NCBI RefSeq assembly: GCF_001544015.1
Contig: NZ_AP014924.1
Coordinates: 3,100,001-3,164,000 of the forward strand
Reading direction: 5' to 3'
Origin: Limnochorda pilosa
GTDB lineage: Bacteria > Bacillota > Limnochordia > Limnochordales > Limnochordaceae
Length of the DNA: 64,000 nt
Under the pieces are notes generated by a model that was not told where the DNA came from, searched no databases, and was given only the letters and a program-made list of their open reading frames with translations. Positions 16,907 through 24,261 of the stretch are shown here, piece after piece (the stretch's first letter is position 1; each line of letters opens with the position of its first letter). The position numbers and the translations under genes were made by a program.

Positions 16907-19711
<2,805 letters not shown>

Positions 19712-19819
19712 GCAACTCGCCACCTTTCCGCCAGGCCCGGGGGCCTGCGCCTGGCCTCCCATCGGAAGCCGCCACGAAGAAAAAGGCCGCTCGCCCCCGG
19801 GCGTGGCCGGCCGACGCGT

Positions 19820-19849
19820 ATTATACCATGCCGGGAAAGGGCCGAACAA
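19820..19849 (-). promoter_or_regulatory. Sigma-A promoter of secA with extended -10
   Basis: On the minus strand TTGTTC (19844-19849) and TATAAT (19820-19825) are 18 bases apart, with TGG directly before TATAAT. Transcription would start near 19812, about 100 bases before the secA start. Confidence 0.75.
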
Positions 19850-19971
19850 CCGCGGGAGCCGGAGCGAACGGTCCGAAGGGCGGCCCGGCGCCTGCGCGCT
19901 GCCGCCAGGGGAGCCCATCGGTGCCAGCCTGTCCAAGGGGACCCGGCGCGGCCAGGAGGCGGAAAGGGGGA

Positions 19972-20535
19972 TCAGGCGGGCTCGGTGCGGCGGCGGGGCA
20001 CCATGGCCCGCTGCATCAGCAGGAAGATGCCCACCCCGATGAGGACGTCGCCCAGGCTGAAGATGACGGGGCGCGGGTAGGGGGGCGGCAGGGTCATCCA
20101 GTCCCCCAGGAAAGCGAGGCGGGTGGAGGCGCCGGTGAGCTGGTGGAAGAGCTCCGCCCCGGCCTCCATGCGGCTCACGGCCCGGGCGCCCCCCAGCCGG
20201 AGGACCGCCTCGGTGAGCACCGGCATCTTGCCCCCGTTGGCCGCGATGACCAGGAAGTTGGAGAAGACCCCGGCGCCCATCACCAGCAGTTCCGGCTTCT
20301 CCCGGTTCATCCAGAACGCACCCAGGAGCAGGACGAAGCTGAGGAGGTAGATGTAGGGCGCGTAGGCCGCGACCCCGCTCAACCCTCGGCCCGCCGCCGC
20401 CCCGAAGGCGAACTGGAGGAGGAAGGCGGCCAGGATGGCCGGGATCCAGCGGAGCTCCAGATCCGCCACGTTTCGGATCCGCCCGCCCCGCAGCCAACCG
20501 GCGAGGATGCCGAGAACCATGAAGTCGAGGAGCAT
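19972..20535 (-). CDS. DUF5317 family membrane protein
   Basis: This 187-residue protein has about five membrane helices. It contains [32 protein letters not shown] and [13 protein letters not shown] (the Asn-Gly-Gly-x-Met-Pro signature), followed by a C-terminal helix and a basic tail. The function of the family is unknown. GGGAGGTCACCC precedes the ATG. It follows the HD-GYP gene by 76 bases on the same strand and probably forms one transcription unit with it. Confidence 0.72.
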
Positions 20536-20611
20536 GGGTGACCTCCCGTGCGCTGTTGCTAGTTACGGCCGGGGCCGTCATTCGATCCGGGCGCGGGGCG
20601 GGCGAACCCCT

Positions 20612-21937
20612 CTACCCCGGGTGTCCCTCCGCCGGCGCGGCCCGGGGGGCCGGGGCGGCCTCGGCCTTGGGCACCAGGATGCCCTTGGCGGGCAACACCT
20701 GGTCCAGGAAGACGTCCACGATGCGGGGATCGAACTGCGTGCCCCGCCCCGCCCGGATCTGCCGGGCGGCGTACTCGTGTGAGTAGGCCGGCCGGTAGGC
20801 CCGATCGATCACCATCGCGTCCCACGCGTCCGCCACCGCGAGAATCCGGGCCCCGAGCGGAATCTGCGCGCCGGCGATGCCGCGAGGATAGCCGCCGCCG
20901 TCGTATCGTTCGTGGTGGTAACGAACGATCTGCTGCACCTCGCGCAGGAAGCCGATGGGGCGGATCATCTGGGCGCCCCGTTCGGGGTGCTCCTGCATCC
21001 GGGCATACTCGGCGTTGTTGAGCGAACCGCCCTTGAACAGGATGTCGTCGCCCACGGTCATCTTGCCGATGTCGTGCAGCAACGCGGCCGACTCGATCAC
21101 CTGCTGTTCCGGTTCGGGCAAGCCAAGGACCTCCGTGATCGCCTTCGCCAGCTCCGCGACCCGCGTCGAGTGACCATGGGTGTAGGGGTCTCGGGCATCG
21201 AGGACCTCGGAGAGGATGCGCATGGTTTCGATGTGGGCTTCGCGCAACTCGGCGTTCTGGCGCACGGTGAAGCGAACGGCCACGAGAGACAGAAGCAGGA
21301 GCGCGATCCCCACGAGCCCGAGGGGAGTAAGGTAGACGTAGTACATGAGGATACCGAGGGTTGCGGTGATCGCGTAACTCAGCAGCGACCACCGAACATC
21401 GATCGTAAACGTGGATCGAAATCCTGACCAAAAAGAAGGCGAACGCGTTGCAATGAACGCATCCACGAAGGCCGTGTTCGTAGCAAACGTGACCACCACG
21501 GCCACAACGAAAAGAGGAAGTAACGATGCGAGGTTCCCTGGATTTGGCGGAACACCGCCGAGCCATGCTAGGACTGTACCAGTGGCCAAGACACTAAGAT
21601 ACATCTGTCCTACGTTGTAAATGAAGTTGAGGGGCGGGTAGTGTCTACGGATTCCCTCCACCCCAGCAACAGCTGCAACGACGACGGCCGAGGGCAAAGG
21701 CCCTAGAATCATGAGGCTTGCTAGGAAAACCGTGAACGATAGGGAGAGATGTGCCTTTAGTTGCGGAACAGGTACATTGTCCGACTCGGCGAGCCACGCC
21801 ATACCGAAGAGGGCGAAGAGATGGACGAGATTCCAGTTAGATGGATAGTGCACCGCTGGCCATGTGAGACTGGTCAACGCCAGATACAGTAGCCCGGTGA
21901 GAGTGAGTCGTCTTCGAGTCTTGACATCGACCGCCAC
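20612..21937 (-). CDS. Membrane-bound HD-GYP domain protein (probable cyclic-di-nucleotide phosphodiesterase)
   Basis: The 441-residue protein has an N-terminal sensor region of about seven membrane helices (residues about 10-215). A short coiled linker (VRQNAELREAHIETMRIL) and an HD-GYP domain follow. The catalytic residues are intact: RDPYTHGHSTRVAELA, LLHDIGKMTVGD near residue 287, EHPERGAQMI and HHERYDGGGYPRG near 341. HD-GYP enzymes degrade cyclic di-GMP. The GTG at 21937 has GGGGGGAG six bases upstream. The membrane half has clearly lower GC (32 of 60 at 21421-21480) than the HD-GYP half (47 of 60 at 20821-20880), which suggests a mosaic origin. A peptide gene precedes it and a DUF5317 gene follows. 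Confidence 0.88.
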   Translation of the reverse strand: MAVDVKTRRRLTLTGLLYLALTSLTWPAVHYPSNWNLVHLFALFGMAWLAESDNVPVPQLKAHLSLSFTVFLASLMILGPLPSAVVVAAVAGVEGIRRHYPPLNFIYNVGQMYLSVLATGTVLAWLGGVPPNPGNLASLLPLFVVAVVVTFATNTAFVDAFIATRSPSFWSGFRSTFTIDVRWSLLSYAITATLGILMYYVYLTPLGLVGIALLLLSLVAVRFTVRQNAELREAHIETMRILSEVLDARDPYTHGHSTRVAELAKAITEVLGLPEPEQQVIESAALLHDIGKMTVGDDILFKGGSLNNAEYARMQEHPERGAQMIRPIGFLREVQQIVRYHHERYDGGGYPRGIAGAQIPLGARILAVADAWDAMVIDRAYRPAYSHEYAARQIRAGRGTQFDPRIVDVFLDQVLPAKGILVPKAEAAPAPRAAPAEGHPG

Positions 21938-21974
21938 GTGAAACTCCCCCCGAAAAACCGGCACCGTCGATTGA

Positions 21975-22064
21975 TCACGCGTCGGGGTCGATAGACTTAA
22001 GCGCCCCGCCGGCGAGCACCAAGCTAGCGAGCGTGGCCAGGATCAGCAGAAGACGGGCCTTCAT
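21975..22064 (-). CDS. 29-residue hydrophobic peptide encoded before the HD-GYP gene
   Basis: The frame starts at an ATG preceded by GGGGGATGAGCC. It encodes one basic residue pair, a 14-residue leucine/alanine-rich helix (LLLILATLASLVLA) and a short polar tail ending in Asp-Pro-Asp-Ala. It stops 37 bases before the HD-GYP start on the same strand. A signal-peptide-like or single-helix membrane peptide is the obvious reading. It has no cysteine, so it does not fit the AgrD thiolactone type. It could be a leader, a ligand or a partner of the seven-helix sensor domain. I recognise no family. Confidence 0.5.
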   Translation of the reverse strand: MKARLLLILATLASLVLAGGALKSIDPDA

Positions 22065-22393
22065 GGCTCATCCCCCTTTGGCTGGGGCTGGTCCGCACCG
22101 CTTCGCTCGCGGCGGACCGCAAGTTCCGCTTCGCTTCCCCATAGGGGTTTGACGATGAGCCGTCCTCTTCCCCCGCGGCTACGTTGATGCTGCGATGGTG
22201 GTGCTTGGTTGACGGTGCCGGTAACGGCAAAACTCTTCACTTTTCATCGCTCCAGCCCCGACCCGGGTGACTCCGCCGGTCCCTGCCGACCGCCCATCGT
22301 GCGGCGGACCCCATCCGCGGCAGGCACCGTCTCCATTCGGTCGAGAGCCGAGCGTCGGCCTGGCGGTACAAAGCCCGCCGGCCAGGGGGGATG
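22065..22393 (-). promoter_or_regulatory. Leader / intergenic region before the peptide-HD-GYP locus
   Basis: I see no gene in this stretch. On the minus strand it contains several hairpins, including GGTCCGC/GCGGACC within 22091-22119 and GCCG-TTAC-CGGC near 22215-22235. Local AT-rich patches occur near 22230. I looked for a cyclic-di-GMP riboswitch, expected before such a gene, and did not find its conserved core on this strand. A promoter must lie here but I cannot define it. Confidence 0.35.
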
Positions 22394-23104
22394 TCACACC
22401 AGCTCCTCTTCGAGATTGAACAAGATCAGCTTGCGGTTCAGGGCGTCCAGCACCGCCCGCACCGCCGCCTCCACCGGGTCACTCTGCACCAGGGCGCTCC
22501 CCACGAGGGACTCGGGCATCCTCCCGCGGACACTGAGCTGGACGGCGGCGACCACGGCCTCCGCATCGCCCATCTCCACGGCTAGAACGTCCTCCAGGGT
22601 GATGCGGCAGAGCCCCTCCATGAACTCCTGGATCGCCCGGATGACCGCCTCTGCCCCGAGCCGGATCCCGTTGGCTCCCTGGGCGCTCCCCTCGGACTCA
22701 CCCTCGTAGAGGGCCTCGCCCTGCTGGAGCTGCACCCGGACCCGGATGGTCTTCTGGCGGTTCTCCACCAGGATCGAGTCGATCTGCAGCCTGGGCTCCT
22801 CGTCCGGGCCTCCTGCCGGGGCCTCCTCGGCCTCCACCTGCGCCACGCTGACGACGCGGTGGTCGATCTCAAGCCCGAACTGCGCCTGACAGAGGGAGAC
22901 CACGTCTCGAACGATCTGCTTGGGCGTCCGCCCCGTGTGCGCGAGCACGTGGATCTCCTCGACCGCATCCCCGCCCGGCGTGAAGACGACACGGGCCGAA
23001 AGCGCTCCCCGCACCCTGGCGATCGCCTGTTCGAGCTCGTCCGGGTCGACCCGGCTCCCGGCCGGCGGATCCCCCATCTCGCCCACGGCGGAGTGCCCTC
23101 CCAT
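22394..23104 (-). CDS. Conserved hypothetical acidic protein
   Basis: The protein is about 237 residues, acidic and without membrane helices. The N-terminal part (about 20-90) looks like a small alpha/beta unit (LEQAIARVRGALSARVVF, EIHVLAHTGRTPKQIVRDV). The C-terminal part (about 110-235) repeats strand-helix patterns (TIRVRVQLQQGEALYEGES, AVIRAIQEFMEG, VVAAVQLSVRGRM, AAVRAVLDALNRKLIL). I recognise no family. The ATG at 23104 has a weak site; the GTG at 23086 behind GGGAGGG is an alternative. It directly follows the nucleotidyltransferase-like gene and is probably co-expressed with it. Confidence 0.6.
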   Translation of the reverse strand: MGGHSAVGEMGDPPAGSRVDPDELEQAIARVRGALSARVVFTPGGDAVEEIHVLAHTGRTPKQIVRDVVSLCQAQFGLEIDHRVVSVAQVEAEEAPAGGPDEEPRLQIDSILVENRQKTIRVRVQLQQGEALYEGESEGSAQGANGIRLGAEAVIRAIQEFMEGLCRITLEDVLAVEMGDAEAVVAAVQLSVRGRMPESLVGSALVQSDPVEAAVRAVLDALNRKLILFNLEEELV

Positions 23105-23151
23105 CCTGGCGGGAACGGCCCGTATGGCGCCGTCGTGTCGGCCTGCTGGTA

Positions 23152-24261
23152 TCAAATTCTAGGAACGGCTGGGAGTTCCTGCTTGTTCCTGAGCGCGGCG
23201 TCCATCAGGGCCCAGACACCCCCGGCTACCAGCGAGTGACCGCCCAGGAGGACGGGAATGGGCGCCTCCCGCGCCGCCCGGGTCAGCTCCTGGGTGAATG
23301 GGTCCTCGATCGCGTCTGGGAGAAGCAGGTCCGAGTAGAAACGGTCGGCCGCGGACGGGGTCGACCGCCGGTGGGCCCAGAGGACGCGGGTGTCGACAAA
23401 GGCCGCGTCGGCCAGGCGGGTCAGACGGTCGATGAAGCCGGCGGGCCCCACCTCGTCCACCAGGAACCCGATGAGGGAGGTCACTTCGCCCCGCGCCTCG
23501 CGCCCCAGGGCCTTCATGCCCCGCTCCTCGCTGAAGAGGCGGAGGCGGCAATGGGTCGTCTCGTCCAGGTAGGCGAAGAGCGGCCCGCCCACCCGGCCGA
23601 AGATCAGCACGTCGCTCTCCCGGGACATGAGGCGGTCCCGGGCAAGGCGGACGCGGTCCAGCTCGAGCCCCAGGCGGGCGAGTGCGGCCGCCGTGCGGCG
23701 TCCCACCCCCGGATGCACCGCCAGCACCATCAGGTCGCTGGGCGTGTCCACGTCGAAGTTGATCCCCAGGCTCCGGGGCAGGGGGCGATAGGGGAGCCCC
23801 GCCTCCTCCAGGGCCTGGGGAAGGAGGTTGTCGATGGGGGGGAGCTCCGCTTCCAGCACGCTCCGGGCCGGCGCGAAGGCGACCACGTCCGCCGAGTGGT
23901 AGTTGTTGGCGGCCACGAAGGGCTCGGACCGCTTCAGGAGGCTCGCGATCTGCCCCAGCTCCAGCGTGTGGGCCAGGGGGGCTGCGCCTCCACCCACGTA
24001 CAGCACCGCGTCGAGGGCGTGGCGAAGGACCACGTCTCGCAGGGTCTTCCCGAAGTGGAAGGGCTCGCTTCCGGTCAGGTGCACGTGGGCACCCAGAGCC
24101 TCGGCGTGCCGAGCCATCTCGGGGCGATCGGTCACCAGGATCGACCGGTCCAGCGCGTGAATCCTGCGTGCCTGCTCGATCCGGTCCAGCACCATGCCCT
24201 CGCGCGCCTGCTGCATCATCCGCTCGGGCAGGCTGGCCGCCGGACCACCCTCGAAGATCAC
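23152..24261 (-). CDS. Nucleotidyltransferase-like (MobA/CofC-type fold) protein of unknown substrate
   Basis: The 369-residue protein looks like a GT-A/NTP-transferase fold. Residues 20-170 show RSILVTDRPEMARHAEALGA, LDAVLYVGGGAAPL and GINFDVDTPSDLMVLA, the last matching the D-x-D-T-P-x-D metal/ligand motif of CofC-like nucleotidyltransferases. The usual glycine-rich nucleotide loop at the very start is poor (IFEGGPAAS). The second half (about 190-360) carries an unknown domain with LFGRVGGPLFAYLDE-like and VLLGGHSLVAGGVWALMD stretches. A GTG start is assumed at 24261. The substrate cannot be inferred; the gene lies between hpf and an unknown partner. Confidence 0.45.
   Translation of the reverse strand: MIFEGGPAASLPERMMQQAREGMVLDRIEQARRIHALDRSILVTDRPEMARHAEALGAHVHLTGSEPFHFGKTLRDVVLRHALDAVLYVGGGAAPLAHTLELGQIASLLKRSEPFVAANNYHSADVVAFAPARSVLEAELPPIDNLLPQALEEAGLPYRPLPRSLGINFDVDTPSDLMVLAVHPGVGRRTAAALARLGLELDRVRLARDRLMSRESDVLIFGRVGGPLFAYLDETTHCRLRLFSEERGMKALGREARGEVTSLIGFLVDEVGPAGFIDRLTRLADAAFVDTRVLWAHRRSTPSAADRFYSDLLLPDAIEDPFTQELTRAAREAPIPVLLGGHSLVAGGVWALMDAALRNKQELPAVPRI

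Follow-up and report, generated by a model that had tools for sequence, protein, structure and literature searches.

In the 64,000-nucleotide stretch of Limnochorda pilosa DNA analysed here (the window; contig NZ_AP014924.1, positions 3,100,001 to 3,164,000), a gene for a 29-residue peptide lies directly before a gene for a membrane receptor with an HD-GYP domain, and the recurrence of this peptide–receptor pair across many bacteria that are only distantly related suggests a peptide-dependent signalling module that has gone unrecognised. Our leading reading of the sequence data is a peptide-linked cyclic-di-GMP module, the association being near-absolute in the loci examined. The original prediction, made from the letters of the window, had proposed a peptide-tuned cyclic-di-GMP system; the linkage of peptide to receptor was borne out across genomes, while the tuning itself, like the mode of contact, is something that we infer. 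Stated in full, the explanation that we favour is that the peptide is truly made and serves a membrane receptor for cyclic-di-GMP control as its dedicated component, a built-in ligand that would set the phosphodiesterase; we hold it tentatively, at slightly below an even chance.

The peptide gene runs on the minus strand from an ATG at 22064 to a TGA at 21975 (21975..22064) and is defined by its sequence, a profile match and codon comparison; the product, MKARLLLILATLASLVLAGGALKSIDPDA, is membrane- or signal-like. Its ribosome-binding site, AAAGGGGG (22072..22079, minus strand), ends 7 bases 5′ of the ATG, a placement similar in relatives, and both the frame and the good ribosome-binding site claimed for it are present. 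The receptor gene (20612..21937, minus strand), recognised by Pfam and from its translation, encodes a multi-helix membrane domain and an HD-GYP domain in 441 residues from the preferred GTG start at 21937, just upstream of which stands a ribosome-binding site, GGGGGGAG (21944..21951, minus strand). With this start, the 37 bases that had been given between the peptide stop and the HD-GYP gene are exact; the longest frame begins at GTG 21964, encodes 450 residues and leaves a 10-base gap after the peptide stop. The HD-GYP domain (20720..21217, minus strand) matches PF13487 with 148.2 bits against a cut-off of 27.2, in agreement with the original identification, and the motifs HDIGK and HHERYDGGGYP are both found in the translation; it is clearly an intact predicted phosphodiesterase. 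The genome, a single 3.8 Mb contig, holds one such receptor, and its remaining HD-GYP matches span the output domain only. The order on the minus strand is LeuA_dimer-like gene, peptide, receptor and DUF5317 gene.

Judged by its sequence, the window peptide is a member of a conserved microprotein family, whose consensus from an alignment of 88 peptides is MARLLKILLALVALVLAGGANFKW. When the 1242 stop-to-stop segments of the window are scored with a profile trained on 68 peptides, all from outside the class of the window, this peptide comes out on top (22.4 bits, E 4.7e-6, against 8.6 bits and E 0.1 for the runner-up). A related profile, applied to the 3.8 Mb genome as a whole, likewise places it ahead of every other match (E 7.0e-4, the second-best having 0.076). 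Related receptors of the window's own class have a comparable short frame upstream; the nearest genome, of the same class, encodes MKARLLLVLATLVSMVLAGGAMKHIGPDA before a receptor 63% identical to that of the window, and peptides from other classes of the phylum are more regular (MKNIVKAILALVALVLAGGGSFYW, MSKLLKAITVLVTLVLAGGASFRI, MKATLVKIAMAIVTLVLAGGAGWKL). Codon comparison gave a pooled proportion of nonsynonymous differences (pN) of 0.090 and of synonymous differences (pS) of 0.361 over 15 groups, and 0.12 and 0.44, respectively, for the window peptide and its nearest orthologue, all values being pairwise, uncorrected and mutually non-independent; the ratio was 0.63 in group g90. Changes at codon positions 1, 2 and 3 numbered 71, 46 and 245 (12 groups). 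The low pN relative to pS indicates protein-level selection on the peptide. The original prediction had staked itself on conservation of the frame and on such selection; the frame is conserved in near and distant genomes, and selection is seen.

The composition of the family is consistent with a membrane-inserted segment. Lengths range from 17 to 31 residues (median 25, n = 89); K or R occurs within residues 2–9 in 88 of 89 peptides and D or E in 2 of 89. The hydrophobic core tolerates exchange among L, I and V in the 88-peptide alignment and is constant between lineages, whereas the tails differ, with GGA-N-F-K-W as the C-terminal consensus. No Pfam or NCBIfam family matched the window peptide at E ≤ 0.1, and six relatives searched at E ≤ 10 gave only matches below the cut-off; a known microprotein family was ruled out in the absence of any Pfam or NCBIfam match above cut-off. 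Four assemblies (G095:C43, locus L250; G165:C21, L249; G175:C52, L247; G345:C5, L251) break inside the peptide gene, at or just past the GC-rich LAGGA codons.

The association with the receptor was tabulated over 128 membrane-domain hits at 114 loci. A peptide precedes 89 of the 90 first-position receptors that have a LeuA_dimer-like and/or DUF5317 neighbour (both, 72/72; LeuA_dimer-like only, 8/8; DUF5317 only, 9/10), and the sole exception, L113, is a locus cut by a contig end. It precedes none of the 29 receptors with neither neighbour and none of 9 second tandem receptor copies. The figure of 89/90 is partly post hoc, since the motif list was fixed after the hits had been seen and the peptides of L042 and of four loci of family f33 were added by eye; short hydrophobic frames also stand, uncounted, before some neighbourless receptors (e.g., L127 and L151). 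Tandem receptor pairs sharing one peptide and one DUF5317 were found at L120, L123, L124, L177, L181, L184, L189, L191 and L192.

A whole-genome search for the peptide is less biased than this count, yet its profile was trained on 44 peptides from the same 299 genomes. At E ≤ 7e-4, a cut equal to the window peptide's own E value, it returned 74 places in 73 of the 299 genomes; 69 of them are followed, after 49–279 bases and on the same strand, by a receptor domain. Of the remaining five, four are truncated where a contig ends and lie behind a LeuA_dimer-like gene, and one is inside a 502-codon frame. Among the 21 weaker matches listed to E 0.05, three are at a cassette (G106, G358 and G297) and 18 elsewhere, mostly in long frames. 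The search overlooked the known cassette peptides of G018, G022, G214, G088, G203, G256 and G350.

The pairing is also seen where the cassette is rearranged. In reversed loci, where DUF5317 comes first and the membrane-domain gene second, all eight loci read have a short frame with a ribosome-binding site between the two, directly before the membrane-domain gene (e.g., MKKVFFWLTVAAMVLAAIAKVPWH and MKKFEGIKYSRIVINAIIVASVVVALTSGYKLGG); these frames were chosen by a filter on hydrophobicity and ribosome-binding site, with no family test. The outputs of six reversed-order proteins scanned include HD-GYP alone, HD-GYP with a histidine-kinase-like ATPase, PAS-HD-GYP-GAF-GGDEF and GGDEF-HD-GYP. Phyla other than that of the window were sampled via plasmid records only. 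Euzebya pacifica (Actinomycetota) has the peptide MSPRTRKALMNLAALVAVILATGAPQKWG, then a GGDEF-EAL gene whose product has a membrane domain of this type, and then a DUF5317-EAL fusion; plasmid record OY725879.1 has MKKILFALASLCSLVLASGAFFCVR at the equivalent position, and the Natranaerobius thermophilus peptide MNKVVLILVTLLGVVLAGGASFTWGGGG is absent from the listed gene table, a table incomplete by its own description. On the Natranaerobius plasmid (L244, NZ_CP144220.1), the HD-GYP and DUF5317 genes are split into separate frames and the peptide frame is intact. The four loci of family f33 encode peptides of 19–20 residues (e.g., MKKVVKVLVSLVGAGYLKW); DUF5317 is missing there and the W-ending tail is kept.

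A second peptide type (e.g., MKKRVMAIIFTIALTLSHAVVALADTARFRMR) ends in a canonical signal-peptidase pattern (...LAD-T...) with a DTARxR tail and precedes a divergent second receptor without an adjacent DUF5317 in several genomes of the window's class. It was present at 11 of 11 loci checked, with a search filter that required AD near the peptide end, and seven equal-length pairs differ 25/0/75 times at the three codon positions. Five genomes (L045–L049) have both receptor types convergent in one region, each with its own peptide.

The membrane half of the receptor (21197..21922, minus strand, placed by alignment and model) falls short of MASE9 (PF20972), the window protein scoring 15.9 bits against a cut-off of 24.3. 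Its fold was approached through the homologue L176, as an AlphaFold model of a natural read-through in which the stop is read as Gly, giving peptide, linker and receptor domain in one chain. The membrane domain is modelled with a predicted local distance difference test score (pLDDT) of about 95 and a predicted template modelling score of 0.84, and its helices are compatible with six or seven membrane spans. Its top 21 structural matches are all S-components of energy-coupling factor (ECF) transporters, including RibU, FolT, ThiT, BioY and NikM/CbiM (Z 8.1–12.0; next fold 5.8), with RibU at Z 12.0 and a root-mean-square deviation of 3.3 Å over 160 residues. Because one family fills all the top rows, we take the modelled membrane domain of this homologue to share the ECF S-component fold. 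For NikM and CbiM, the alignment opens with residue 1 of the solved chain set against residue 22 of the model, which belongs to the peptide tail; this is only a hint, the pLDDT there being near 54.

Downstream of the receptor, DUF5317 (19972..20535, minus strand) is a membrane protein conserved beside it, and its position after the HD-GYP gene was as predicted (PF17248, 141 bits against a cut-off of 25). It begins 76 bases after the receptor; with the 37-base gap before the receptor and the shared strand, a single transcription unit of peptide, receptor and DUF5317 is plausible. A simple scan showed no sigma-70-like promoter. The DUF5317 model has a pLDDT of 96 and no good match among solved folds, the best being Z 5.8 to a designed protein and, with Foldseek, E 2.8. 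The residues invariant in 64 sequences (G89, N93, N100, M104, P105, D145, S160, G162, D163 and G169) include no Cys or His; the two Asp among them, D145 and D163, were considered as a possible GxGD protease signature. A role as a known protease or transporter was considered and finds no support from a solved-fold match, a search of a kind that cannot exclude one. The fusion of DUF5317 to EAL (L245, NZ_CP031166.1, 3998–6538) suggests that it may be a sensory input domain. PF17248 also matches in the control genomes of Thermus composti and Thermotoga maritima.

Upstream of the peptide, and outside the unit originally described, a LeuA_dimer-like gene (22397..23155, minus strand; start codon uncertain) forms a fourth linked gene on the same strand. 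Its product of about 200–250 residues is found upstream of the peptide in the window and in 84 further loci of the 114 examined. The window protein is below the cut-off of LeuA_dimer (PF08502; 21.0 and 21.5 bits against 24.9), and 5 of 28 members of this upstream family match it at E ≤ 0.01. On the other flank, secA, recognised by Pfam, lies downstream of the window cassette (16907–19696), and secA-like frames were noticed by eye in the same place in L039, L040 and L044.

Many relatives carry a further conserved element in the 60–70 bases that lead up to the ribosome-binding site of the peptide. It consists of GAGCGRAGCGG, a hairpin with some 7 base pairs and TAGCGG in the loop, then GAG, and often ACCG ahead of the ribosome-binding site. 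We regard this RNA leader as a candidate new cis-regulatory RNA class. It occurs once per genome where found, and 38 loci were aligned, with L116, L119, L160 and L182 among the loci carrying it. Across the 38 matches, pairing holds in 96.8% of cells, and both sides are changed in 71; none of 500 shuffles is as high, and sliding of the partners gives at most 9. Pair counts on alignment A13 are, however, biased towards the structure, since no consensus fold came from an earlier alignment (A8) and the model was then seeded with 7 of 19 rows from hairpins parsed by script. One of five covariation measures, pairs changed on both sides (6), was no better than shuffles (342/500). A second model, run on 199 genomes, matched 33 of them once each at E ≤ 0.01, many of which had supplied training rows; the cassette follows directly at 32 of these 33 places, and the exception, G177:C60, is without a cassette and was taken as chance. 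Rfam 15 gave no match to the leader at E ≤ 1 in 12 loci, nor in positions 19500–23500 of the window. Folding of four relatives gave minimum-energy structures whose outer helix takes in the ribosome-binding site of the peptide in part or in full, although just one of these sequences folds far more stably than its shuffles (z −3.1). The window has a look-alike (22066..22110, minus strand; hairpin GGTCCGC/GCGGACC with AGCG in the loop, parsed by script), which is below significance (E 0.28 with model R2) and is missing from the 15 genome-wide matches listed; the leader is therefore a finding on the family and not on the window.

We hypothesize the following course of events. A basic N-terminus followed by a hydrophobic core predicts an N-inside, C-outside orientation, and the peptide would insert in this way, with its short tail (GGA-N-F-K-W) outside. 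S-components open their ligand pocket to the outside, so that tail and pocket are expected on the same face; the tail may contact the outward pocket of the S-component-like domain as a tethered or locally released ligand. Occupancy of the pocket, and competition from a small ligand or from the peptide level, would shift the membrane domain and then, via a signalling helix, the HD-GYP domain. DUF5317 would belong to this complex as a partner and might hold, insert or process the peptide's hydrophobic part. In many relatives the peptide dose is probably set by a structured mRNA leader that is able to pair with the ribosome-binding site of the peptide gene. The peptide stays with one receptor class even where lineage, gene order and output domain differ, and it is under protein-level selection; the simplest view is therefore that it is a subunit or ligand of that receptor. 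The most extended form of this scheme, a widespread peptide–receptor system in which the lineage-specific tail is the cognate ligand, DUF5317 the handling partner, a new RNA class the dose setter and some genomes hold two orthogonal pairs, is possible but doubtful.

Several observations weigh against a built-in ligand acting on an S-component-like receptor. The window's own tail, ALKSIDPDA, is atypical in that it is missing the W, and the f33 peptides, at 19–20 residues, are probably too short for a membrane span. AlphaFold did not place the peptide confidently on the receptor in the L176 read-through (peptide pLDDT 73/54/54 against about 95 for the domain). Foldseek found no Protein Data Bank match for the L176 domain at E ≤ 0.001 (best 1.4e-3), and the aligner's notes caution that Z values under about 13, as here, can reflect a common arrangement in helical bundles. 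Finally, at ten DUF5317 loci (L231–L240) the stretch read contains neither a receptor-domain hit nor a peptide match of more than 9 bits, which means that DUF5317 is not confined to the module.

The main rival is a released pheromone. Signal peptidase I would cut after the conserved LA and liberate a tail of 7–8 residues (GGAxFxW; for the second type, DTARxR) that neighbouring cells would sense, linking cell density to cyclic-di-GMP. The peptides do have signal-peptide anatomy, with A at the putative −1 cleavage site in 76 of 88 aligned sequences; the canonical cleavage site of the second type, the five genomes with a second receptor beside the first, and tails that vary between lineages on an unvarying core would all suit such a signal. 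We nevertheless consider it unlikely, as no exporter or dedicated protease was identified, DUF5317 offers no invariant Cys or His and the f33 peptides look unfit for Sec export. Two peptide signals of known type were tried and ruled out: an AgrD autoinducer, because any Cys occurs in only 4 of 89 peptides, the window peptide having none, and DUF5317 is without invariant Cys or His; and a lipoprotein signal peptide or pheromone, because there is no lipobox Cys, LAG being followed by G in 82 of the 88 aligned peptides and by C in none.

Next come two readings without an extracellular message. The peptide could be a structural microprotein, an assembly or stability factor of the receptor–DUF5317 complex with no signalling role, as one peptide per operon adjoining the receptor, L/I/V exchange of the kind seen in helix packing, and the joint loss of DUF5317 and shortening of the helix in f33 would allow; the variable aromatic tail, retained even in f33, suggests recognition beyond packing, and we find this reading improbable. 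Alternatively, ribosomes stalling on a leader peptide could sense a small molecule and control the receptor gene. The peptide is short, close in length to TnaC, and just upstream of the receptor; many members have a W near the stop codon, and many relatives have a structured RNA leader. That RNA, however, precedes the peptide, and in each of the four relatives that were folded the ribosome-binding site of the peptide itself lies partly or wholly in the outer helix; the RNA would thus control the peptide and not depend on translation of the peptide. The 49–279 base spread in spacing to the receptor domain, membrane-like conservation along the full length and a pairing that outlives changes of gene order also argue against stalling, which we judge more improbable still. 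A chance open reading frame was ruled out, with negligible probability left to it: the frame is short, and its appearance in a listing of open reading frames is by itself no evidence, but conservation, the codon tests and the receptor association contradict it.

To our knowledge, most of the membrane sensor domains found on cyclic-di-GMP enzymes have no known ligand. A peptide encoded beside one large receptor class is a concrete candidate for a ligand or subunit, and DUF5317 and a LeuA_dimer-like protein of unknown function become tied to one module. The microprotein family has no Pfam or NCBIfam model, and it is unlisted in two annotated plasmid gene tables, which are incomplete by their own description. 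The open-licence PubMed Central literature, judged from listings, yielded no paper on such a peptide; the term DUF5317 was absent, and MASE9 appeared in one unrelated paper.

Like the receptor, the orphan membrane sensors of cyclic-di-GMP enzymes, MASE9 among them, have a multi-helix N-terminal domain of unknown ligand, but the window domain falls under the MASE9 cut-off, and we know of no peptide partner described for MASE domains. Membrane microproteins regulate sensors in the MgrB-PhoQ and SafA-PhoQ pairs; as we propose here, a single short hydrophobic protein acts on a membrane sensor, whereas our peptide is encoded directly before its receptor and the output would be cyclic-di-GMP turnover. 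The peptide quorum sensing systems AgrBDCA, PapR and ComS offer another parallel, a short peptide gene beside a multi-helix receptor and a further membrane protein. The differences are the lack of a Cys for a thiolactone and of AgrB-like residues in DUF5317, as compared with AgrBDCA, and an output that is an enzyme instead of a histidine kinase or transcription factor. With ECF S-components, some of which work with small partners such as CbiN, the receptor membrane domain appears to have its fold in common, as modelled for the homologue, and an outward ligand pocket is expected from that fold; here, the domain is fused to HD-GYP and GGDEF outputs and preceded by a dedicated peptide. An S-component-like membrane protein has been placed atop a pathway that changes cyclic-di-GMP in Caulobacter crescentus, namely HmrC (PMC11481889). 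HmrC is a separate five-helix protein that acts with a histidine kinase, and the excerpts of that report mention no peptide (PMC11481889); on the strength of these excerpts, it is the nearest published analogue that we found.

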